DNA from: Bryobacterales bacterium
Lineage (GTDB): Bacteria; Acidobacteriota; Terriglobia; Bryobacterales; UBA6623
Length of the DNA stretch: 64,000 bases
Direction of reading: 5' to 3'
Assembly: GCA_026713545.1 (NCBI GenBank)
Contig: JAPOOG010000083.1
Span: 62,001-126,000 of the forward strand
Below the pieces are notes generated by a model, which saw only the letters and a program-made list of their open reading frames with translations, had not been told where the DNA came from and did not search any database. Both the position numbers and the translations under genes were made by a program. Below, piece after piece: positions 6,109 to 43,730 of the stretch (positions within the stretch are counted from its first letter, which is position 1; each line of letters opens with the position of its first letter).

Positions 6109-6337
6109 TAGGGCGCAGCGAGGAAAGTTGTGGCAATCCGTTCCCTCTATCGATCGGGCGGCCGCTGCTCTCAGAAGTCAATTAGGTGTCACAGTACGGA
6201 TTGTGCTCACCGGAAGACACCTCGCGCGAAATCTCCTATCCAGTGGCTGCTCCTCGATTGGGGCCACCTCGAAAAGCTCGGACGAGAGCCGATCTACTCC
6301 CGCTCTGAGCGTTGGGCCGAGAGGCGCGCCTGTTAAC

Positions 6338-6595
6338 AGCCCGTGTCAAAAGTCACGCAGGCGGCGTTACGCGCCCCTGGACGGATTGCGTACTGCCCAG
6401 CCGCTTCAGGAAGGCGGCGCCTCGCTCTGCGCGCAGCCGAGTGGAAACGGCGCGTAACCCTTTGGGCGACGGACATTTGCGGTCGTCGGCTTTGTCGTTC
6501 GTCGGAGGAGATCACCCGGATCGCAATCTTCCTCATTCCGCGCCGAGCGACCGCAGGAGCCCGCCGCGCCTTCCACGGGGCTATTGACACGGGCT
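6338..6595. mobile_element. MITE-like element, copy 1 (258 bp, perfect terminal inverted repeats)
   Basis: A non-coding element bounded by perfect inverted ends: AGCCCGTGTCAA at 6338-6349 and its reverse complement at 6584-6595. It is flanked on both sides by GTTAAC (6332-6337 and 6596-6601), a likely target-site duplication. The right half (about 6455-6585) is nearly identical to the inverted copy at 25893-26156. No transposase is encoded, so it would have to be moved in trans. Internal open frames are shared only because the DNA repeats. Confidence 0.75.
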
Positions 6596-6721
6596 GTTAA
6601 CAGCTTTTCTGTGAATGCTCCACGAGACTCCCTTCAACTCTCCGACGCTACTCGCCGTCCGATCGTGCGCACACGTTGAGGTCGGATCGGACATGATTTG
6701 CTAGAAAGTAGATCAACCGCC

Positions 6722-9445: not shown

Positions 9446-9603
9446 GGCGGTACCCTCGAGATGGAGGCGCGGTGACTTCCTGTTCTCATCCAATATTCAG
9501 GTTCGGACCTCCGGCCGCTTCAATGGTATACCTCGACGTGCTGTTGTGGGAAGTGCTTTCTCCGGTCTGTGCTGTTATCCGAAAGATATTCACTGTGGCC
9601 TGA

Positions 9604-9790
9604 CCTGCATTTCTCACCACACGACGTCAGAAGCACGCGATACGACCGCCATGACTTCGCTTTTCCTTCGCAACGCTTGCTTGCCGTGCTCGACGTACCG
9701 TCAAGTACGCCTGCGCGCGCCAAGCGGCTCGCGCCTCGCCCTGACGGCCCTCTCACGCACTTCAGCTCGCCTCGTGGTGAGAAATGCAGC
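9604..9790 (-). mobile_element. 187-bp inverted-repeat element, family 2, copy A
   Basis: The ends are an imperfect inverted repeat, CCTGCATTTCTCACCAC on the left (from 9604) and GTGGTGAGAAATGCAG on the right (9774-9789). The interior contains smaller dyads. The same element, in the opposite orientation and of almost the same length, is at 38977-39162. It ends directly against the plsX stop codon, so it may form the 3' end of that transcript. Partial copies of the same left end occur near 41.5, 43.1 and 43.3 kb. It has no coding capacity. Confidence 0.7.
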
Positions 9791-10813
9791 CTAGAGACTG
9801 GCGGCGGGAAGTTCTTCCAGGCCTTTGAGGAGAGTGGCTTCGATTTCTTTATTGACGCCCCCTTCGTAGATTTCGCGAGCAACCCGGATGGCGTTCTTGA
9901 TGGCATGGGCGTTCGAGCGACCGTGGCAGATGACGCAGACGCCTTTGACGCCGAGGAGGGGAGCGCCGCCGTACTCGGTGTAGTCCACTCGCTTGCGAAA
10001 GTCCTCGAAGGCTCCGCGCGAAAGCGCATAGCCGAGTTGGCGGGTGAGATTGGCTTCGAGTGACTCGCGGAGCAGGGATTTGACAGTATTTACGAGTCCT
10101 TCGCTGACCTTGAGCGCAACATTGCCGATGAAGCCGTCGCAGACGATGACGTCGGCATGTCCGCTGTAGAGGTCCTGGCCTTCGACATTGCCGATAAAGT
10201 TGATGGGGAGTTGCTTGAGCAGCGGAGTCGCTTCGCGGGTGAGTTCGTTGCCCTTATGTTCTTCCTCGCCGATCGACAGGATACCGATGCGGGGATTCTG
10301 TCGGTGACAAACGACACGGGAGTAGGCCGCGCCCATGATGGCGAAGTCGGTCAGCATTTCCGGTGCACAGTCCACGTTCGCACCAACGTCGATCAGGACG
10401 GCCAGCGTTCCCTTCAAGGTGGGGAAGACCTGTGCGATAGCCGGTCGGTGGACACCAGGGAGGACGCCCATGACAACCTTCGATATGGCCATTGCGGCGC
10501 CGGTGTTCCCGGCAGAAATCAGTCCCTGGGCATAACCGTCGCGCACGAACCCGGCTGCGACCCGTATAGAGCTATCCTTTGCACGGACGGCCTTGCCGGC
10601 GACATCGGACATCGAGATCACCTCGCTGGCGTGAGCAATCTCGATTGGCAGCAGGGCGGCATCTTCGTGTTGGGCGAGTTCGCGCCTCAACACGTTCTTA
10701 CGGCCGACGAGGATGATGCCGAGTCCGTATTCGCGGGCGGCCTGGACAGCTCCCTCGACTTCAACACGGGGTGCCTGATCTCCGCCCATTGCATCGAGGG
10801 CAATCTTGAGCAT
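9791..10813 (-). CDS. plsX: Phosphate acyltransferase PlsX
   Basis: A 340-residue cytosolic enzyme that converts acyl-ACP to acyl-phosphate, the first step of the PlsX/PlsY route to lysophosphatidic acid. The N-terminus [15 protein letters not shown] is the family signature. Conserved blocks [26 protein letters not shown] and DGFIGNV follow in the normal order, and the length is standard. It is the last gene of the yceD-like/rpmF/plsX cluster, a widespread gene order; the usual fabH is not downstream, where an inverted-repeat element takes over. Confidence 0.97.
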
Positions 10814-14155: not shown

Positions 14156-17100
14156 ATGTCCTACCGGGTCGGTATTCTCGCAGGTGTAGTGGCGTGCCTG
14201 CTCGGGACGGTTGCCCATGCAGTTGACCCCTGCGTGATTCGCGGTAACGTGATCACGTCGGGCTCGGAGCCTCTTCCGGGCACGCAGGTTGAACTGATCG
14301 ATTTTTCCACCGGAAAGGTCATCGTTACCCATACGGACTCGCAAGGACGCTTTGCATTCGAGGGTTTGGCGACCGGCCGCTACTCCGTTTCTTTTTCGCT
14401 CGACCAATACGCGACCCAAAGGATCGGGCCCTACGAGTTGCTGCCCGGCATCCCGCTCGAGCTTTTGGTGCAACTGCAGACTCTGGCCCCGCCTTTGACG
14501 CGGGCGAAGGCCGGCCTCGAAGGCATCGCACTCGAGTACGGACTCGTTCGCGAGCAGATCGAGAGTTTGCCGGTTCTGGTCGGCAGCGAAGGCCGTACGT
14601 CGGTCGACAAGTTGTTGTTGATGGTTCCGGGCATGAGTCCGACGACTTCGCTTGAGATCGATCCTTTCTCGGGACGTGGGGCAGCGGTTTCAGCCAACGG
14701 TTCACGACGCTCGGCGATCAACTACCAGTTCGATGGTGCGCTGAACAATTCGCAGAATCGCATCACTGGTGCGCAAGCCGCGACCTTCGGGCCCATACCG
14801 GAAGCCGTCGAGTCTTTTCGTGTTGTGACGCACACCTATTCGGCGGCTGACGGTCGTAACGCAGGCGCGATCGTCGCCCCGGTGTCGCGGCGCGGAGGTG
14901 ATAATTGGCACGGATCGCTTCGAAGCTTCTGGCGCCCCGGCATGAACGATGCCCTGGAGTCGTTCGACGGCTCGACGGATTCCATCAATGGATGGACCGG
15001 AGGTGGACAGATCGGTGGGCCACTATGGCGCAAGCGTGGACTCTTCTTCCTGTTGGACGCCGAAGGCTGGGGCACGCAGCGTGAGCATCTTGAAATCTCG
15101 AACGTCTTGAGCGAAGCAGAGCGCTCGGGAGACTTTTCGGCCGTTCCCGCCTTTGACCAACCCATCGATCCTGATACGCTCCAGCCCTATCCCAATGCGC
15201 AGTTGCCCACGACCGCCTTCGATCCGTTAATGGCCAAATATCTCGACACCTTTGTGCCGAGGGCCAACGTCGGCACAAACCTGCATCGGCAACAGAGCAC
15301 GCTTGACAGCAGCGGGGAGATGCTGCTTGGCCGGTTGGATTACCGGCGTCGGCAGTGGTCGATGAGTTGGAGTCACCACACCTTCCGAAATACTGTGCGG
15401 GACCCGCTGTCGGAGGTGCTGCTTGCCGTGCCCGGGGTAGCCGAACAGCGGCGCCAACTCTCCAACAACTCTCAAATCTACATCACATATTCGCCGACGG
15501 CCAACTTCACACACTCGACCGGCATAGCCGGACAGCGTCTGGCGATTGGTCGCTGGCAAGGACTCCTGGACTTTCGTGATGTGTCGGCCGAGAGTGTCGG
15601 ATTCAAGTTCCGGAGCTTCGGTACGGACCCCGGAACGATCCCCGACGTTACGCTTCTGACAAACGCAGGCGCGGAGAAACTGCGCATTACACCGTTCTTG
15701 TTCAGTGAGGGTTCAGCGCAGACGACGCTTCAGCTTCGCGAAGACGTCAGCTATCGCCGCGAGCGCGTGGGCTTGCGCGCCGGCGTGTCCTATCAGCGCG
15801 GCATCTGGCCGTTTTCTAACACCGAGAACCATGCCGGCAGCTTCACGTTTGGAACCCCTGCTACCGGTGGGACGCGCAACAGCGTGGCGAACCTGCTCAG
15901 CGGCGTCCCAAGTGGCTACCGTTTGCAGACGCCGCGAAGCTTGAATCTTCGTTGGACCGAATGGGCCTACTACGGTGAGGCCGTGTTGCGGCCGTTTCGA
16001 GGTGCGCAAATCACTCTCGGCTTGAGGTACGAGTCGCAGCCGCCGGCGGTCGATCGGCTGAATCGCGTGGCGGCTTTTCGCGAGGAAGTGGAATCGCAGC
16101 GTTTTCCCGACACCTTGTCGAACCTCATCTTCCCCGGCGACCCCGATGGCGACCTCGGGCCGTTGCCGCGTTCGACGGTCGAGACGGATGGCAAGCACTT
16201 CGTTCCGCGCGTTGGCCTCAGCTATTCTCCGGTATCGGACAACCGGGTCTCGCGTTGGATCTTTGGTGAGTCCGGACGCTCGGTATTCCGTGCTTCCTAC
16301 GGGGTTTTCTACGATTTCGGGACGTTCGCCGGATCAAGCGCCGCGGCGCTGTTTCAGGCCACCTATCCGCCGTTCAGTACCGATAACCGTTTCGACTTCA
16401 CGCCGTTCTCCGGCACCCAGGGGAGTTTTGAAGCGCCGCTGTCGAAGATTCCGGTGCTCGACCCGAATGCGATTCGCAGTCAGTATGTGACGTATCCCAT
16501 CCGGGTGTTTGATCGCAATTTCGACAACGCCTTCGCCCGGCATTGGACCATCGGTTGGCAGCGCTTGCTGCCCGGGCGCGTGCTGGTTAGTGGGGTTTAC
16601 TTGGGTACACGGAGCGAACAATTGCAGCGACAGCGTGAGTTGAACGTCTTCAGGCGCAACCCTCTCCTGCCGTTCAGCTTCATAAGCGGCATGCGCCGGT
16701 ACTCGCTGTACACGGATATCCGGCAATTCGAGAGCACGGGCACGAGTCTCTACCACGCGGCTCAAATTCGTGCGACGCGGTATCTGAACCGGGGCTTGGC
16801 CTTCGACGTGAGCTACAACTGGTCCCGCGCGCACGACGACGGCAGCACCACGTTTGGAGAAGAGTTGAATACGGAGCCCTGGGCTCTGTCGAACTTTGAT
16901 CGCCGCAACACGTTTACGGCTACCTGGTTCTATCAGCTTGGCTTGGCGCCGGGCCTGCGAAATCGCGCGGCTTGGCTTGACGGATGGATGATCAGCGGCA
17001 CTTGGCGGTATCGCTCCGGGTTGCCCCTCGATATCCGGCAAACGCAGGACCCGACGTTCAGCTTCGAGCACGTCGGGCGACCGGATCTGGTAGGTGAATT

Positions 17101-17470
17101 CCGGCGGCTCGATCCCGGAGAGAATCGGACTATCACTTTATCCGACGGGCGCAAGATCACCGGTCGATTCGCTTTCGACCCGACGGCGTTTCAACGTGTC
17201 GAACCCACCGATTTTGACGAGTTGCGGCCGGGTAACGTCGGACGGAACCAGTTCACCACCGGCGGCTTTCAGCAGTGGGACATGCGGGTCGCCAAGGCGG
17301 TCAGTTTGAACGAAGCTCTGTCTGCGAACGTCGGCCTCGACTTCATCAACCTCTTCAACAATAAAAACTGGGACCTGCCGTTCAACAGTATCGACCATCC
17401 GTTCTTCGGTGTCGTGCGAACGGAAGGGCTTGATCGCACGCTTCAGTTGAGCGTTCGGCTTCAGTTCTAG
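14156..17470 (+). CDS. TonB-dependent receptor with carboxypeptidase-regulatory domain (Oar-like)
   Basis: A 1104-residue outer-membrane receptor. It has a signal peptide (MSYRVGILAGVVACLLGTVAHA) and a carboxypeptidase-regulatory-like domain at about residues 28-105 (VIRGNVITSGSEPLPGTQVE). A plug-like region follows (DKLLLMVPGM, SANGSRRSAINYQFDG), and then a long barrel that ends LQLSVRLQF. This is the large Acidobacteriota receptor type, usually for oligosaccharides or other bulky ligands; the ligand is not predictable. It starts 6 bases after the anti-sigma stop, in the same operon as the ECF sigma factor, an arrangement reminiscent of FecI/FecR/FecA signalling. No N-terminal STN signalling domain is seen, so the signalling link is inferred from gene order only. 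Confidence 0.88.
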   Translation: MSYRVGILAGVVACLLGTVAHAVDPCVIRGNVITSGSEPLPGTQVELIDFSTGKVIVTHTDSQGRFAFEGLATGRYSVSFSLDQYATQRIGPYELLPGIPLELLVQLQTLAPPLTRAKAGLEGIALEYGLVREQIESLPVLVGSEGRTSVDKLLLMVPGMSPTTSLEIDPFSGRGAAVSANGSRRSAINYQFDGALNNSQNRITGAQAATFGPIPEAVESFRVVTHTYSAADGRNAGAIVAPVSRRGGDNWHGSLRSFWRPGMNDALESFDGSTDSINGWTGGGQIGGPLWRKRGLFFLLDAEGWGTQREHLEISNVLSEAERSGDFSAVPAFDQPIDPDTLQPYPNAQLPTTAFDPLMAKYLDTFVPRANVGTNLHRQQSTLDSSGEMLLGRLDYRRRQWSMSWSHHTFRNTVRDPLSEVLLAVPGVAEQRRQLSNNSQIYITYSPTANFTHSTGIAGQRLAIGRWQGLLDFRDVSAESVGFKFRSFGTDPGTIPDVTLLTNAGAEKLRITPFLFSEGSAQTTLQLREDVSYRRERVGLRAGVSYQRGIWPFSNTENHAGSFTFGTPATGGTRNSVANLLSGVPSGYRLQTPRSLNLRWTEWAYYGEAVLRPFRGAQITLGLRYESQPPAVDRLNRVAAFREEVESQRFPDTLSNLIFPGDPDGDLGPLPRSTVETDGKHFVPRVGLSYSPVSDNRVSRWIFGESGRSVFRASYGVFYDFGTFAGSSAAALFQATYPPFSTDNRFDFTPFSGTQGSFEAPLSKIPVLDPNAIRSQYVTYPIRVFDRNFDNAFARHWTIGWQRLLPGRVLVSGVYLGTRSEQLQRQRELNVFRRNPLLPFSFISGMRRYSLYTDIRQFESTGTSLYHAAQIRATRYLNRGLAFDVSYNWSRAHDDGSTTFGEELNTEPWALSNFDRRNTFTATWFYQLGLAPGLRNRAAWLDGWMISGTWRYRSGLPLDIRQTQDPTFSFEHVGRPDLVGEFRRLDPGENRTITLSDGRKITGRFAFDPTAFQRVEPTDFDELRPGNVGRNQFTTGGFQQWDMRVAKAVSLNEALSANVGLDFINLFNNKNWDLPFNSIDHPFFGVVRTEGLDRTLQLSVRLQF

Positions 17471-17532
17471 AAGGTTGAGTCGAGACAAATGGACTTTGTC
17501 ATCGGGGTCGATGGAGTAAGCCTCGTCGATGC

Positions 17533-17703
17533 AAGGAACTCGCTGCCGTGCTCTTCGCGCTGCAGGTCTACCGTGTCGCGAACGGTTCGGGGCGACGGAC
17601 GTGTGTGGTCGTTTGCTCTGTCGTTCGCCACAGCTCACCAACCCGCATCGCCGTCCTGCTCACTCCGCGCCGAGCGATCGCAGAATCCTGCCGCACCTTC
17701 TAT
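17533..17703. repeat. Decayed copy of the MITE-like element (copy 3)
   Basis: This stretch aligns with the right half of the elements at 6338-6595 and 25893-26156. Shared landmarks in order are GGGCGACGGAC, TGTCGTTCG, a GCTCACC block and CCGCGCCGAGCGA(T/C)CGCAG. Neither end repeat is intact. It lies between the receptor gene and the convergent triple-RidA gene and does not code for protein. Confidence 0.6.
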
Positions 17704-17723
17704 CTGACTTTCACCAAGGACTA

Positions 17724-20745: not shown

Positions 20746-20950
20746 GCTAGCAGTCCGTGGTGAAACCCCGCGTAGCACCGAGAGCGGCGAGGCGCCCGGC
20801 TGACAAGGCGTGACGAGGGAGCATATTGGACCTATTCGACCGAGGAGCAACGCAGTTCAGCCGGGATGCATCGCCGCTTGAATGTAGTGGGGCTTTTGCC
20901 ACGGGCTGCTAGACTCAACAGTTTATTTCACGGCCCCTTCCGAGTCCTGA

Positions 20951-22550: not shown

Positions 22551-22669
22551 CGCAACCTTTATCGTGTTGGCGACGTCGTACTGCACTACCGTGGGCCTTG
22601 GTCACAGGGGTTTTCCGTGTTAGCCTTACTGACAGTTCCAGACTGAATACCCGTGATGTGGGTATGCTC
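22551..22669 (+). repeat. Duplicated 5' leader of the TPR gene pair, copy 1
   Basis: This 119-bp stretch before the first TPR gene is closely similar to 24362-24478 before the second, from CGCAACCTT through the common blocks GGCCTTGGTCACAGG, AGCCTTACTGACAGTTCC and CTGAATACCCG to the start codon. TTGGTC and TAGCCT sit 17 bases apart in both copies, a possible but poor promoter. The conservation may reflect a control region or simply recent duplication. Confidence 0.6.
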
Positions 22670-24190
22670 ATGCAACGGATCAAGATACTGGCTACCGTTT
22701 TAGCTTTGTTGTTTGCGACGGTTGTCTGGTCTCAACAAGACGGAGACAGAGACGGCGGGGCCACCGGTGGCGCGCCAGGTGGGACTATTGGTGGCGTGCC
22801 AGGAGGGGCTACCGGTGGCGCGCCAAGTGGGACTATTGGTGGCGCGCCAAGTGGGACTATTGGTGGCGCGACAGGGGGGTCTATTAGTGGCGCGCCAAGT
22901 GGGACTATTAGTGGCGCGCCAAGCGGGACTATTGGTGGCGCGCCAGGGAGGTCTAGCGGTGGCACGCCAGACGGGGCTGCCCGTGGCACGACAGGCGGGA
23001 CTACCGGTGGCACGACAGGTGGAACGACCGGTGGCGTTGGCCGAGGTACTACAAGCTCAACGACCACCGGCGGTCAGCAGGGACGTACCACCGACCCCTA
23101 CCCCTCCGGACGGCCGCAACAGCGGCAGCGGTTTCCTCAATCGGACTTCGGGCGCCTGGGGCGCCCGGTGTACCTCAGCGGCAAGGTTGTGTTGGCGAAC
23201 GGCATGACGCCTCCGGAGCCGGTGAAGATTTACTTGGATTGCCCCGGTCGGCGCCGGCCCGCCGGCCTCACCAATAGCAAGGGTGCCTTTAGTGTCGATC
23301 TTAATAATCCTCACAACACCTTTCGCGATGCGAGCGTCGGAGGTGCGTCCAGCAGGATTAGATTCCGCAGCAGCGGCCTCGGACGAGTCAACCTGTCCGG
23401 TTGCCAACTTCTCGCCGAGTTGGGCGGCTATCAAGCTGACCCGATTCATTTGGATACTCGCAGCGTCTTTGACAATCCCGACGTCGGAACGATGGTGCTG
23501 CGGCGTTTGGATGGTGTAGAAGGCATGTCCATCAGTTTCACCAGTCTGTCAGCCCCCAAGAAGGCCAGGAAAGCCTACGACAAGGCATCCAGGGAGATGC
23601 AGAAGAACGAGCCGAACCTGCAAAAGGCCGAGAAGGAATTGGAGACGGCGGTGGGCTTGCACTCCGAGTACGCCACGGCCTGGAATATGCTGGGCCGCGT
23701 TCGCCTGATGCAGGACGACCTTGAACGCGGCCGGGCCGCGCTCGAGAAGGCTGTCGATGCCGATCCGAAATTTGTGGATCCCTATCTCGCTCTCGCGCGT
23801 CTGGCGCTCACTCGGCAGCGCTGGAACGATGGGCTGCAGTGGTCGAATCAGCTTCTGCGGCTGAATCCGCACGCTGCGATTGCGCATTACTACTCGGCCA
23901 TTGCCAACTTCCGTTTAGGCCGCATGGAGGCTTCCAGGAAGTCGGTGATCGAGCTCAAGGAGAAAAATGTCGACAGAGAGTTTCCCCAGTCCCATCAGAT
24001 CCTGGGCATGATCTATGCTCAACAGGGGCTTTACGAGCAGGCGGCCATATCCTACCGCGACTATCTCACGGTGCAGCCGGACGGCCCCGCCGCTTCACGG
24101 ATCCAACGTCAACTCCACGATTGGGAAGTTCTGGGGATGATCCGGAAACAGCAAGCCGAGGCGCCGGTCGCTGCCGTCCCCCGGAACTGA
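22670..24190 (+). CDS. Secreted Gly-rich, carboxypeptidase-regulatory-like and TPR protein, paralogue 1
   Basis: A protein of about 506 residues. ATG 22670 is chosen because it matches the start of the paralogue at 24479. A signal peptide (MQRIKILATVLALLFATVVWS) is followed by a Gly/Pro/Thr-rich low-complexity stretch of about 100 residues built of 8-residue repeats (GGAPSGTI type). Next comes a carboxypeptidase-like domain (YLSGKVVLANGMTPPEPVKI), then a linker with DNPDVGTMVLRRLDGVEG, and TPR repeats that begin near TAWNMLGRVRLMQDD. It is probably exported or surface-exposed, with TPRs for protein contacts. Proteins of this layout are common in Acidobacteriota and have no known function. Confidence 0.85.
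   Translation: MQRIKILATVLALLFATVVWSQQDGDRDGGATGGAPGGTIGGVPGGATGGAPSGTIGGAPSGTIGGATGGSISGAPSGTISGAPSGTIGGAPGRSSGGTPDGAARGTTGGTTGGTTGGTTGGVGRGTTSSTTTGGQQGRTTDPYPSGRPQQRQRFPQSDFGRLGRPVYLSGKVVLANGMTPPEPVKIYLDCPGRRRPAGLTNSKGAFSVDLNNPHNTFRDASVGGASSRIRFRSSGLGRVNLSGCQLLAELGGYQADPIHLDTRSVFDNPDVGTMVLRRLDGVEGMSISFTSLSAPKKARKAYDKASREMQKNEPNLQKAEKELETAVGLHSEYATAWNMLGRVRLMQDDLERGRAALEKAVDADPKFVDPYLALARLALTRQRWNDGLQWSNQLLRLNPHAAIAHYYSAIANFRLGRMEASRKSVIELKEKNVDREFPQSHQILGMIYAQQGLYEQAAISYRDYLTVQPDGPAASRIQRQLHDWEVLGMIRKQQAEAPVAAVPRN
22752..23040 (+). repeat. In-frame 24-bp minisatellite encoding Gly-rich octapeptides
   Basis: Units of about 24 bp close to GGTGGCGCGCCAAGTGGGACTATT repeat about eleven times with small changes, each adding eight residues. 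The paralogous gene carries only a short Gly/Thr stretch at the same position (24550-24620), so the array has grown or shrunk since duplication. Unit changes always keep the reading frame. Confidence 0.8.
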
Positions 24191-24361
24191 CCCGGATATC
24201 GCCCAAGCGGCGAGGAGGAGTGTCTGGGGCGATCCTCGGTTGGTGAGATGTCCAAGCTGGGCCAATGACATCGAAGCGGTCGGGTTCTAATACTCCGCCT
24301 GCGCCGGTCCCTCTCCCTGCAGGCGCGTCAGGTCGATTTCGGATAGTATTCGCCCCGGTAC

Positions 24362-24478
24362 CGCAACCTTTCTGTTGTTGGCGACGCCTTACTGCACAAC
24401 CGAAGGCCTTGGTCACAGGAGTTTACTGTGATAGCCTTACTGACAGTTCCGGCCTGAATACCCGAAAGGGGGGTGATC
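24362..24478 (+). repeat. Duplicated 5' leader of the TPR gene pair, copy 2
   Basis: This is the partner of 22551-22669. In this copy the ribosome binding site is stronger: a run AAAGGGGGGT lies about 5 bases before ATG 24479. Just upstream, 24299-24350 is a separate block that recurs at 26182-26236 downstream of the second gene. Confidence 0.6.
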
Positions 24479-25801
24479 ATGCAACGAATCAAGATTCTGG
24501 CTACCGTTCTGGGTTTGTTGTTTACGACGGCTGTCTGGTCTCAACAGACTGGCGGCACTGGCGGCACTGGCGGCGCCACCGGGGGCACTACCGGCGGCAC
24601 GACAGGTGGTGGCCGAGGTACTACGAACCTCCCGACCACAGGCGGTCAGCAGGGGCGAACCAGCGACCCCTACGGACGGGAGCGACAACAGATTCCTCAA
24701 CCGGACTTCAGGCGCCCGTTGTTCCTCAGCGGCAAGGTCGTGTTGGCGAACGGCATGCCCCCTCAGGAGCCGGTGAAGATTTATTTGGATTGCGACGGCC
24801 AGCGCCGGCCCGCCGGCTTCACCAGCTCCAAGGGTAACTTCAGCGTTGATCTTAACGATCGCAACAACATCGCGTTCGCCGATGCGAGCGTCCAAGGAGC
24901 ACCCGCTGGGATAGGGCAACAAGCGGGCGGGGGCGGGGGCGGATTCGGCGCCGTGGGCACCGACCTTTCTACTCGCAGCGACGGCCTCGGACGAGTCAAC
25001 CTGTTCGGTTGTCAACTTCTCGCCGAGTTGGGCGGCTATCAAGCTGACCCGATTCCGTTGGGTGCTCGCAGCGTCTTTGACAACCCCAACGTCGGAACGA
25101 TGGTCTTGAAGCGCTTGGATGGAGTCGAAGGTTCGTCCATCAGTGTTACCAGTCTGTCAGCTCCCAAGAAGGCCAAAAAAGCCTACGACAAGGCATTCAG
25201 GGAGATGCAGAAGAAAGAGCCGAACCTGCAAAAGGCCAAAAAGGAGTTGGAGTCGGCGGTGGGTCTGCACTCCGAGTACGCCACGGCCTGGAACCTGCTG
25301 GGTCGCATTCGAATGATGCAGGACGACCGGGAAGGCAGCCGGGCCGCCTTCGAGAAGGCTGTCGAAGCCGACCCGAAATTCCTGGATCCGTATCCCGTTC
25401 TGGCGCGTCTGGCGCTCACCGAGCAGCGCTGGGACGATGGTGTGCAATGGTCGAATCAGCTTCTGCGGCTGAATCCCCGCGCCTCGATGGCGCATTACTT
25501 TTCGGCCATTGCCAACTTTCGTTTAGGCCGCATGGAGGCTTCCAAGAAGTCGGTGCTCGAGCTCAAGGAGAAAAATGCCGACAGAGAATTTCCCCAGTCC
25601 CATCAGATCCTCGGCATGATCCATGCTCAACAGGGGCTGTACGAGCAGGCGGCCATATCCTACCGCGACTATCTCACAGTGCAGCCGGACGCCCCCGCCG
25701 CTTCTCAGATCAAACGCCAGCTCCACGAATGGGAAGTGCTGGGGGTGATCCAGAAAAAGGAAGCCGCGGCCTCGCCGACCTCCGCCGTCCCTCAGAACTG
25801 A
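24479..25801 (+). CDS. Secreted Gly-rich, carboxypeptidase-regulatory-like and TPR protein, paralogue 2
   Basis: A 440-residue paralogue of the preceding gene with the same order: signal peptide (MQRIKILATVLGLLFTTAVWS), short Gly/Thr stretch, carboxypeptidase-like domain (FLSGKVVLANGMPPQEPVKI), DNPNVGTMVLKRLDGVEG linker and TPRs. It differs by a shorter Gly-rich region and by an inserted glycine-rich loop with GGGGGGFGAVG near residue 150. The start ATG 24479 has a good upstream purine run. The two genes, their leaders and part of their 3' flanks form a tandem duplication of about 1.8 kb. Confidence 0.87.
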   Translation: MQRIKILATVLGLLFTTAVWSQQTGGTGGTGGATGGTTGGTTGGGRGTTNLPTTGGQQGRTSDPYGRERQQIPQPDFRRPLFLSGKVVLANGMPPQEPVKIYLDCDGQRRPAGFTSSKGNFSVDLNDRNNIAFADASVQGAPAGIGQQAGGGGGGFGAVGTDLSTRSDGLGRVNLFGCQLLAELGGYQADPIPLGARSVFDNPNVGTMVLKRLDGVEGSSISVTSLSAPKKAKKAYDKAFREMQKKEPNLQKAKKELESAVGLHSEYATAWNLLGRIRMMQDDREGSRAAFEKAVEADPKFLDPYPVLARLALTEQRWDDGVQWSNQLLRLNPRASMAHYFSAIANFRLGRMEASKKSVLELKEKNADREFPQSHQILGMIHAQQGLYEQAAISYRDYLTVQPDAPAASQIKRQLHEWEVLGVIQKKEAAASPTSAVPQN

Positions 25802-25892
25802 CCTGGACTACTCTCACGTGGCCAATCGAGGTGCTTGGTAAGGGCGTCAGTTTGTGAATTATCCAGGCTGGTCTGATGACATCAAACCGATA

Positions 25893-26156
25893 GCAGCCCG
25901 TGTCAAAAGTCCCGTGGAAGGCGTGGCGGGCTCCTGCGGTTGCTCGGCGCGGAGTGAGGAGGATGGCGATCCGGGTGATCTCCTCCGACGAACGACAAAG
26001 CCGACGACCGCAAATGTCCGTCGCCCAAAGGGTTACGTACGCGCCACTTCCGGCCTTGTGTGCTGAGAGAACGGCGCTGCATTGCAGGGGCGTTCTCTCG
26101 TTACTCAATCGGCCCTGGGGCGCGTAACGCCGCCTGCGTGGCTTTTGACACGAACT
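25893..26156. mobile_element. MITE-like element, copy 2 (264 bp), inserted in a duplicated intergenic sequence
   Basis: This element is inverted relative to 6338-6595. The left end GCAGCCCGTGTCAAAAG and the right end CTTTTGACACGAACT form imperfect inverted repeats, flanked by GATA on both sides (25889-25892 and 26157-26160). The flanks on either side join into a sequence homologous to the uninterrupted region 24241-24350, so the empty and filled states of one insertion site are both in the window. Its interior differs from copy 1 at one end, around the TGCATTGCAG dyad. Confidence 0.8.
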
Positions 26157-26206
26157 GATACGGGTATGCACCACTGACTACGCCGGTCCCTCTCCCTGCA
26201 GGTGCG

Positions 26207-27181
26207 TCAGGTTGACTTAGGGTAGTATCCGGTCCGAGCTTGCACCTTGAGGTTCTTGCGCCGCGTTCGCAGGTTGATTTTTCGAAGCCCGGCGCCGCTT
26301 GAACTGCTTTCAGGTGAGAAACCGATGCTGTACTGGCTGCGCAGTTCGTTCTGGATCTCATCGAAGATCTGCCGCAGCGTCCGCTTGCGCGTCACCTCGA
26401 AGACGTTGCCGCCGGTTTCCCGCGCCATCTTTTTCAGCGCTCCGGAACCGCCGCCCGCGAAGCCCATCCGGCCATAGTAGAAAGTGCGGTCGTAGTACCG
26501 CACTCCGTACACCACGACATCGGATTTGTGAGCTGCTTCGACCGCCTCCTCGCGATCGACGCGGCTGCCGTAGTCGACGCCGTCGGAGATCAGCACGATG
26601 GCCTTGCGCCCGACCTGCCCCTGCATCATCTCATCGGAGGCAAGGTACACGGCGTCATAAAGAGCCGTCCCCACAGGCCGTCCTGAATTCGGCACGGGTC
26701 CGGGATGGATGCCGCGGTTGGCTCCCTCCACTTGCAGGTCCTCGAGAGACCTCTCCAGCAGCCTTTGCGAGCCTGTCAAATCCTGCAGCAATTCGACATT
26801 GACGTCGAAGCTGATCAGGAATGCCAGATCCTTTTGGAGCCGGAGCACCTGCGAAAAGAACTGGGCGGCGGCCCGCTGCTCTTCGTAGATCAGACGTTCC
26901 TGGCTCACGCTGGTGTCGACAAGCAGCCCGACCGTAAGAGGCAAATCCGTCTGTTGAGAGAAGTAGCGAATCTGTTGGCGCTTGCCGTCCTCTTCCAGGA
27001 TGAAGTCGTCTTTGTTGAGGTCCGTGACCAGGCCGCCCTTGTTGTCTCGTACCGTGGCGAGGACATTTACGACCTCCACGTCTACCGAGATGATCGCTTC
27101 TTCCTGGGCTCCGGCCGTTCTGCGCAGCCAGGGGCTCGCTGCGGAAGCCGCAAGCAGGGAGATGGCCTTTCGTCGATGCAT
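26207..27181 (-). CDS. VWFA-related acidobacterial-type protein
   Basis: A 324-residue exported protein of the acidobacterial VWFA-related family. ATG 27181 is used, giving a short basic N-terminus (MHRRKAISLLAASAAS) that reads as a signal. A beta-rich stretch at about 30-75 (VEVVNVLATVRDNKGGLVTDL) precedes the von Willebrand A domain. The metal-ion-dependent adhesion site is intact in part: DTSVS supplies the D-x-S-x-S motif, and LISDGVDYGS has the later aspartate. The C-terminus (SIGFSPESS, RTGYYPKS) is typical of the family. Function unknown; likely an extracellular binding protein. Confidence 0.9.
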   Translation of the reverse strand: MHRRKAISLLAASAASPWLRRTAGAQEEAIISVDVEVVNVLATVRDNKGGLVTDLNKDDFILEEDGKRQQIRYFSQQTDLPLTVGLLVDTSVSQERLIYEEQRAAAQFFSQVLRLQKDLAFLISFDVNVELLQDLTGSQRLLERSLEDLQVEGANRGIHPGPVPNSGRPVGTALYDAVYLASDEMMQGQVGRKAIVLISDGVDYGSRVDREEAVEAAHKSDVVVYGVRYYDRTFYYGRMGFAGGGSGALKKMARETGGNVFEVTRKRTLRQIFDEIQNELRSQYSIGFSPESSSSGAGLRKINLRTRRKNLKVQARTGYYPKST

Positions 27182-27479
27182 AAATCTATTTCTGGGACGA
27201 TCAGGCCACGGCGGCGGTTTCCCGGAGCCCGAAACGCGGACAGACATTTCTGATCGAACGACTAAGAATTATCGCAGTTCAAGTCGGATATTCGGCGCTT
27301 CTCTGTCGAGTATATGGGTCCGTTGATCGTGGAGCTTGTTTCTTTGCCCAAGCCGCCCAGGGCCGGCACACCCCTGCGACTCAAACTCGACAAAGAATGA
27401 CTTTGAACAGTACCCAAGCCCTGCCGCCGAAGATCGGCATATCGAGTTTCAGGGAACGAACGGGTGCTTCCCGCCCCCG

Positions 27480-38842: not shown

Positions 38843-38976
38843 GGAAACAGCCCTCTGTCGTCGAACACGAGAACACCGGACACTCCCGGCGTGGAAGCGA
38901 TCCAGGGGAAGTCTGATTATCGAAGACGATCGACCGGAAAGTCGAGTGGACAGTTTCGCAGTGCGGCCCCTCTTAG

Positions 38977-39162
38977 CCTGCCTTTCTCACCACGAGGCGA
39001 GGTGAAGTGCGTGAGAGGGCCGTCAGGACGAGGCGCGAGCCGGGCGGACGAAAAAGGCGCGCGCAGGCGTACTTGACAGTACGTCGAGCACGGCGAGCAA
39101 GTGCAACGAAGTCATGGCGGTCATACCGCGTGCTTCGGCCGTCGGGTGGTGAGAAATGCAGG
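38977..39162 (+). mobile_element. 186-bp inverted-repeat element, family 2, copy B
   Basis: The left end CCTGCCTTTCTCACCAC (38977-38993) and the right end GTGGTGAGAAATGCAGG (39146-39162) are inverted repeats. The interior matches the element at 9604-9790 in inverse orientation almost throughout, including CGTACTTGAC and TCGAGCACGGC(G/A)AGCAAG blocks. It lies between the hydrolase gene and the stop of the pyrophosphatase. No protein is encoded. Confidence 0.7.
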
Positions 39163-39213
39163 TTAGGCGTGACACAAGGGAGAAGCTGCCCGATGCCGCT
39201 GTGGCGAACGAAG

Positions 39214-41268
<2,055 letters not shown>

Positions 41269-41469
41269 TTTCCGAGATAAGACAGAACTGACGATGAGGG
41301 GTGGGGAACCCCTGCCTGGCGCCTTCTACCGGCGGTCCAGGAAGACCGCAATGGGAATTCTCAGCGTAACATGCGTCCGGCGCGGATGGCTACGGCGACG
41401 ACGTTGCATGTCGGCGTAATGTGAGAAGTTCCTCTCTCGAGCCAGGCAGAACGTTCCCCTTCGGCTGAC

Positions 41470-41910
41470 CTGCATATCTCACCACGTGGCGAGGCGAAGT
41501 GCGTGAGAGGGTCGTCAGGGCGAGGCGCAAGCCGCCCGCGCCGACAACACAGCTTTTAAGGTTGTTACGAATCACGAGTCACGAAACACGAATCACGGAC
41601 TTCATGCCGTTCGGTTGGCCGTGGATGTGCAAAGGTCGCACAGTCGAAAACCGCTACAGCCGCCGACAAGTCACGGCTTCCCTGTTCACGATTGTTCGCT
41701 ATTGTTCACCATTGTTCGGGGGGCTGAACCAGCGGCCGCCCACAGTGCGCCGTTCTGGGTCGGCCTGACGACGACTGACGTTCGCCGCTGCTCCCATCGC
41801 CCTCCGGGCTTCTACAGCTGCGGCGAACACGAAATGAACCCATTCTGAGAAAGGAGAACGTTCCATATTGCGTTGGCATGGACATGACCTAACGGTGATT
41901 TCGGCCGCCA
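41470..41910 (+). repeat. Composite repeat region upstream of the dCMP deaminase gene
   Basis: This contains, in order, a partial left end of the family-2 element (from CCTGCATATCTCACCACG at 41470), a degenerate heptamer array at about 41572-41606, and a block similar to 43725-44055. The last includes the TTCGCCG...GCGGCGAAC dyad and ATGAAC.CAT.CTGAGAAA. A run of TTGTTCNC units is near 41690-41720. Nothing here reads as protein. Confidence 0.65.
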
Positions 41911-43087: not shown

Positions 43088-43388
43088 GCCAGGCGTGAGA
43101 GGGCCGGCGGAACGAGGTGTGAGCCGCCCGCGCCAGCAACACCGCCTGTAAGGTTTTTCACGAGTCACGAATCACGAATGACGAATCGTTGCATTGGGGT
43201 ACTGAAGCCCTTCAGTCTTTTTTTTTCGCCCCGGCCGGCCTAGCATGAGAACAGCGAGGCGAAAATCCTGACCTGCTTTCTCATCACGTGGTGAGGCGAA
43301 GTGCGTGAGGGGGCCGGCAGGATAAGGTGTGAGCCGTCCGCGCCAGCAACACCGCCTGTAAGGTTTTTTACGAATCACGAAACACGGT
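43088..43388 (+). repeat. Repeat cluster downstream of the dCMP deaminase gene, unit 1
   Basis: This holds two shortened copies of the family-2 left end (around 43088 and 43266). Each is followed by CCGCGCCAGCAACACCGCCTGTAAGGTTTTT and a short array of the 7-bp CACGARN unit (43156-43190 and about 43369-43388). The duplicated terminator at 43201 lies between them. The unit partly recurs at 43450-43730. Confidence 0.65.
43201..43226 (+). terminator. Intrinsic terminator, copy 1
   Basis: ACTGAAGCCCTTCAGT (43201-43216) forms a 6-bp stem with a 4-base loop, then C and nine T (43218-43226). It is about 215 bases past the dCMP deaminase stop in the correct orientation, with no gene between. The same element recurs at 43543-43567. 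Confidence 0.65.
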
Positions 43389-43458
43389 TTTTTCGGCCTT
43401 TCCCGTTCACCGGCCGTCAGACATTTCCTCTGGAGCGAACCAGGCCCCCTCCAATGGT

Positions 43459-43730
43459 TTTCACGAAACACGAAACACGAGACACGAAACACGGCCTTTA
43501 TGTTTTTCACGAATCACGAATGTCGAATCGTTGCATTGGGGTACTGAAGCCCTTCAGTCTTTTTTTTCCGCCCCGTCCTGCTTAGCATGAAGACAGGATG
43601 TCGGGAATCATCCAGATCGACTTGCTCTCGGAGCGGCGCTCGCTGGGTCGGCGGCCGCCCGCAGCGCCGGCAACACGGCCTGTAAGGTTTTTCACGAGAC
43701 ACGAGACACGAGACACGAAATACGGCTTTT
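43459..43730 (+). repeat. Repeat cluster downstream of the dCMP deaminase gene, unit 2
   Basis: Three further arrays of the heptamer (about 43459-43496, 43508-43530 and 43689-43726) occur here, plus a second copy of the terminator and its flanks (GCATTGGGGTACTGAAG). GTAAGGTTTTTCACGA again precedes the last array. Units differ at the last two bases of the heptamer, so this is a degenerate tandem repeat, not a recent slippage product. Confidence 0.6.
43543..43567 (+). terminator. Intrinsic terminator, copy 2
   Basis: Same stem-loop as at 43201 (ACTGAAGCCCTTCAGT) followed by a C and eight T. It is a duplicate and probably a back-up or a leftover from the repeat expansion. Confidence 0.55.

Follow-up and report, generated by a model that had tools for sequence, protein, structure and literature searches.

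A 264-bp insert at 25894-26157 (+ strand), in the spacer downstream of a TPR-repeat gene, is most plausibly an IS1182-associated MITE of the ~260-bp class, moved by an IS1182-like DDE transposase into a four-base YTAR target; we give this reading a probability of about 0.88. The window, that is, the whole 64,000-nucleotide stretch of Bryobacterales DNA analysed here, carries an unfilled paralog of the same spacer, and in a sister species of the same genus the ortholog of this spacer is empty as well. Transposases flanked by the same type of ends and the same type of target were found in related genomes.

Position and boundaries of the insert

The insert lies 92 bp beyond the stop of the second TPR-repeat gene (24473-25801, + strand) and 49 bp away from where a convergent VWA-domain gene ends (26207-27247, - strand). 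The MITE-like element of 264 bp proposed for this spacer by the first-pass annotation is real. In the window it is bounded by the inverted ends CAGCCCGTGTCAAAAG and CAGTTCGTGTCAAAAG, the left one reading CAGCCCGTGTCAAAAGTC and the right one, on the other strand, CAGTTCGTGTCAAAAGCC. Element ends begin with C (CAGYCCGTG...), which corrects the earlier reading. Both the set of end pairs and the spacer alignment described below place the left target copy, ATAG, at 25890-25893 and the right one, ATAC, with one base changed, at 26158-26161.

The single-strand fold of the element is strong (z -5.29) but derives mostly from its inverted ends together with an inverted repeat further inside, and it was not taken to indicate an RNA function. 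A search of window positions 5000-30000 with Rfam at gathering thresholds gave no match.

Paralogous and orthologous empty sites

To recover the presumed unfilled sequence, the element and one four-base copy were taken out and the flanks joined (25845-25893 plus 26162-26236). The joined flanks align ungapped with the spacer downstream of the first TPR-repeat gene (gene at 22598-24190, + strand; spacer at 24234-24357, + strand), 92 of 124 bases being identical. When the joined sequence was shuffled 200 times, no shuffle exceeded 52 matching bases in the 24100-24400 region, and elsewhere in the window the highest score was 54. The continuity of the flanks with an empty paralogous site, already put forward from the letters alone, is therefore upheld.

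The sister genome (G001, against G000 for the genome under study) appears to be the MAG Bryobacterales bacterium RHO3_bin_12, with the relevant contig being JAPPLB010000150.1. This contig is collinear with that of G000, and the duplicated TPR genes are common to both. The orthologous G001 spacer lacks the element and matches the joined flanks at 115/124 bases, the unfilled site reading ccgATAGgggtat; two more TPR spacers of G001 are also empty, and all five spacers are gapless at the junction. Since the unfilled spacers are gapless there and G001 reads ccgATAGgggtat, the target duplication is taken as ATAG, with its right copy now ATAC.

Other differences between both species were seen around these genes. 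The tandem TPR genes (22598-25801) number two in the G000 window and three in G001, and the first of them contains an in-frame array of a 24-base unit (22719-23060), with length differences of 24, 18 and 36 bases relative to G001. Several spacers also differ between G000 and G001 in the presence of another repeat family, CCTGCATTTCTCACCAC ... GTGGTGAGAAATGCAGG, which is unrelated to the insert; it occurs in the window at 9598-9793, 38974-39168, 41469-41584 and 43093-43710, and in G001 at C153:42199-42397, inside the very spacer that corresponds to that of the insert.

Copies, ends and target of the family

The genome-wide copy search suggested by the first-pass annotation returned 52 matches to the element in G000, some of them split, corresponding to about 40 places; as 40 of the 89 initial candidates were scored, the true number may be higher. 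The nearest G000 relative of the copy at 25894-26157 is only 87% alike, so that no direct source of this copy was found. Across 39 aligned copies, members of this family (MITE-A) show 83-95% identity to the consensus, and the two most similar ones, both in G001, reach 98.5%.

With up to two mismatches, the end motif occurs at 143 sites in G000, against 23 for a reversed control pattern. A longer motif, TARCAGYCCGTGNNAAAAG, with at most one mismatch, occurs at 78 sites in G000, 90 in G001 and four in G002, and at any site in 20 of the 61 genomes searched. A 268-bp element query matched three of these 61: G000 and G001, and G006 with a weaker match. Pairing of ends was restricted to fetched loci and yielded 67 pairs (52 in G000 and 15 in G001), a few spurious ones being retained; earlier, laxer pairing had produced 848 and then 271 pairs, mostly spurious. 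Among the 67, exactly 260 bp was found in 20 and 158 bp in 12, the latter forming a group (family B) with the ends of MITE-A and a different interior.

Perfect four-base duplications flank 17 of the 67 pairs; 5000 shuffled pairings averaged 4.24 and never gave more than 12, and none of the lengths 2, 3, 5, 6, 7 and 8 exceeds chance; the bases preferred as target are YTAR. This family pattern, and not the single site, disfavours the GATA reported earlier on both sides of the insert. GATA is present as stated, at 25889-25892 and 26157-26160, and at this site alone the GATA and ATAG readings need one substitution each (for GATA, C for G in the flank), but as the target duplication it gives way to the four-base YTAR register.

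The family thus comprises short elements (260-264 bp in their modal form) that are multi-copy, lack a transposase gene, carry terminal inverted repeats and duplicate four target bases upon insertion, as also seen from the empty sites. Their ends match those of an autonomous partner, but this partner was found in related genomes, and no intact one was found in G000.

Further elements with such ends lie in the window. The copy first placed at 6338-6595, with GTTAAC on both sides, is real and has perfect 13-base CAGCCCGTGTCAA ends; its limits are corrected to 6337-6596 (- strand, 260 bp), with TTAA at 6333-6336 and 6597-6600, and its G001 site is empty. An old, decayed MITE-A copy shared with G001 occupies 17471-17723 (- strand; CTAG/CTAA; boundaries set by eye), and a 158-bp non-autonomous family-B element with the same ends, also in G001, lies at 20751-20908 (+ strand; CTAG/CTAG). 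The left target copy of the decayed element, CTAG at 17467-17470, contains the stop codon of a 1104-aa outer-membrane-barrel ORF (14156-17470), so that a YTAR insertion at the stop leaves the gene whole.

Probable movement after the species split

Three well-preserved MITE-A copies of G000 have empty orthologs in G001: C102:52850, C102:68337 (window 6337) and C102:87894 (window 25894, the insert described here). These are all the well-preserved copies that could be compared on this contig, and the fourth MITE-A site there is the decayed shared copy. In the converse direction, G000 DNA on C65 related to the surroundings of one G001 copy (L118) joins both flanks with two bases between them, although it is a repeat and not a strict ortholog. 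When 14 loci of G001 were compared pairwise with 62 of G000, two alignments exceeded 330 bp; both consist mostly of element, and no shared site was proven among them.

Judged from these sequences, the empty orthologs would most simply be read as insertion after the split of both species. Alternatively, the element might pre-date the split and have been lost from G001 through an exact deletion spanning from one short target copy to the other. Four-base direct copies do flank the element, which would allow slippage to remove it, and G002, tried as an outgroup, provides no polarity: nothing in it matches the 6338 site, and where the spacer of the insert would be expected its DNA is unrelated. Nonetheless, three well-preserved sites are clean and empty in G001, each of them requiring its own exact deletion, and the paralogous spacers are empty in G000 and G001 alike; we consider such loss very unlikely. 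The claim that the insertion is later than the duplication of the TPR genes holds, G001 having the duplicated genes as well but no insert at precisely the corresponding site. With the element mobile after the species split, the insertion would have followed that duplication by a long time.

Candidate partner transposases in related genomes

Pattern matches in genus g6 led to IS with the same ends, of 1482 bp in G009 and 1486 bp in G013. Their transposases, the two that were tested, are 78% identical and match DUF772 and DDE_Tnp_1, domains that typify the IS1182 family. The best NCBIfam model for both is IS1182 (NF033551), with 201.2 and 188.1 bits; these scores lie below the cut-off of 270, so IS1182 is here the nearest name and not a passed test. 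For the IS5 family the scores, 97.8 and 100.3 bits, are likewise under the cut-off, which is 140 for NF033581.

Relatives of these transposases (E 1e-60 or better) occur in 34 of 200 Bryobacterales genomes. Paired ends were checked at 21 loci, resulting in 11 distinct complete IS, one repeat of these and nine without an accepted pair. The complete IS (1467-1556 bp; L123, L132, L136, L138, L166, L167, L169, L170, L173, L174 and L175) come from eight genomes, G009 (four), G013, G059, G044, G153, G063, G083 and G037. All eleven carry CAGYCYGTGG...AAG-type ends, with 0-2 mismatches summed over both ends, and at ten of them the four-base duplication is perfect (CTAG, TTAG, CTAA and ATAA among others). 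The transposase with matching ends that the first-pass annotation had proposed to look for is thus present in related genomes, while no intact one was found in G000. Closely similar ends were also observed within single genomes on full IS (L169 in G044, L167 in G059) and short elements (L072, L079), so cognate pairs of short element and IS seem to exist within one genome.

As a mechanism, the DDE transposase of an IS1182-like IS would recognise the MITE ends of ~16-18 bp, excise or copy the MITE, and insert it at a four-base YTAR site, with duplication of that site. From the likeness of ends and target, we infer that mobilisation took place in trans, the resident source presumably being lost or missing from the draft assembly. 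The MITE as an internally deleted IS was considered and rejected, since no clear interior similarity to the IS appeared among the first 30 matches listed, which covered L126, L138 and L125.

Mobilisation by some other, unrecognised transposase family of G000 with convergent ends would accommodate movement in two species where an IS1182-like transposase was not found. It is nevertheless improbable, because IS1182-like transposases bordered by these ends and by this four-base target occur in eight related genomes. An IS630/Tc1-type element, duplicating TA only with the outer bases as target preference, can be practically dismissed: TA is central in most sites and G000 has eight DDE_3 (IS630-type) matches, but MITE ends lie at none of these eight loci, two-base copies alone (3/67 against a shuffled mean of 1.70) do not rise above chance as four-base copies do, and non-palindromic pairs occur (CTAT/CTAT, ATAA/ATAA, TTAG/TTAG).

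The resident genomes

Returning to the IS1182-like partner, an intact transposase of this type was sought in the draft assemblies of G000 and G001 and was not found, and a DUF772 profile search of both gave no match. All that was detected is a degraded remnant of the C-terminal region, 64 residues long in G000 and 55 residues long in G001. Since both assemblies are drafts, they may lack an IS whose several copies collapsed during assembly. It is conceivable, though we regard it as rather unlikely, that the MITE population kept moving after the split without a working transposase in either species, mobilised by a transposase that comes and goes; such a transposase may have disappeared each time a burst ended, or have arrived from other cells living in that habitat. 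The combination of apparent movement after the split with no intact matching transposase seen is the part that deserves a second look, and it raises a testable question, that of MITEs outliving their own transposase.

Comparison with known systems

No published account of this MITE family in Bryobacterales was found in the literature searched on IS1182, MITEs and Acidobacteria. The element is ordinary in kind, IS1182-associated MITEs being already in print, and new as a family. Its value lies in an unusually well documented natural insertion, for which the element itself, its empty ortholog, the empty paralogs of the two species and the target sequence can all be read. It also ties a group of small repeats in Bryobacterales to a type of IS1182-like transposase that has ends and a YTAR target of its own.

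ISPse1, an IS1182 element, is tabulated with a four-base repeat, if the corresponding column is taken as repeat length (PMC3281130), and YTAR is also given as the target of IS5 itself (PMC10359306). On the contrary, IS1272, of the IS1182 family, is described as replacing inverted repeats and leaving no target duplication (PMC5678879); it shares with the present case, of classical four-base duplication, the family name of the presumed partner.

Two ISMac2-associated MITEs of Methanosarcina acetivorans, as presented in PMC3852290, have an IS1182 partner, measure 160-169 bp and occur in 7-14 copies, one of them with four-base direct repeats as in the Bryobacterales MITE; they differ from it in their archaeal host, their shorter length and a partner IS named for the host genome. 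The same paper describes MITEs as having mostly the ends alone in common with the partner IS, and mentions 19 MITE-like structures for which no partner was found. The IS1182-like IS of Bryobacterales shares with our MITE the CAGYCYGTGG...AAG ends and the YTAR four-base target copy, being 1.5 kb long, with a transposase gene and an interior that is unlike that of the MITE as far as seen. By its description, MITEPye1 of Paracoccus yeei is a further IS1182-associated MITE, with 18-bp ends and four-base repeats (PMC11578231). It is likened to the present family on that description, and is reported at 1-3 copies per chromosome and with IS1182 partners in some strains, in contrast to the about 40 places, and no intact partner found, in the genome studied here.
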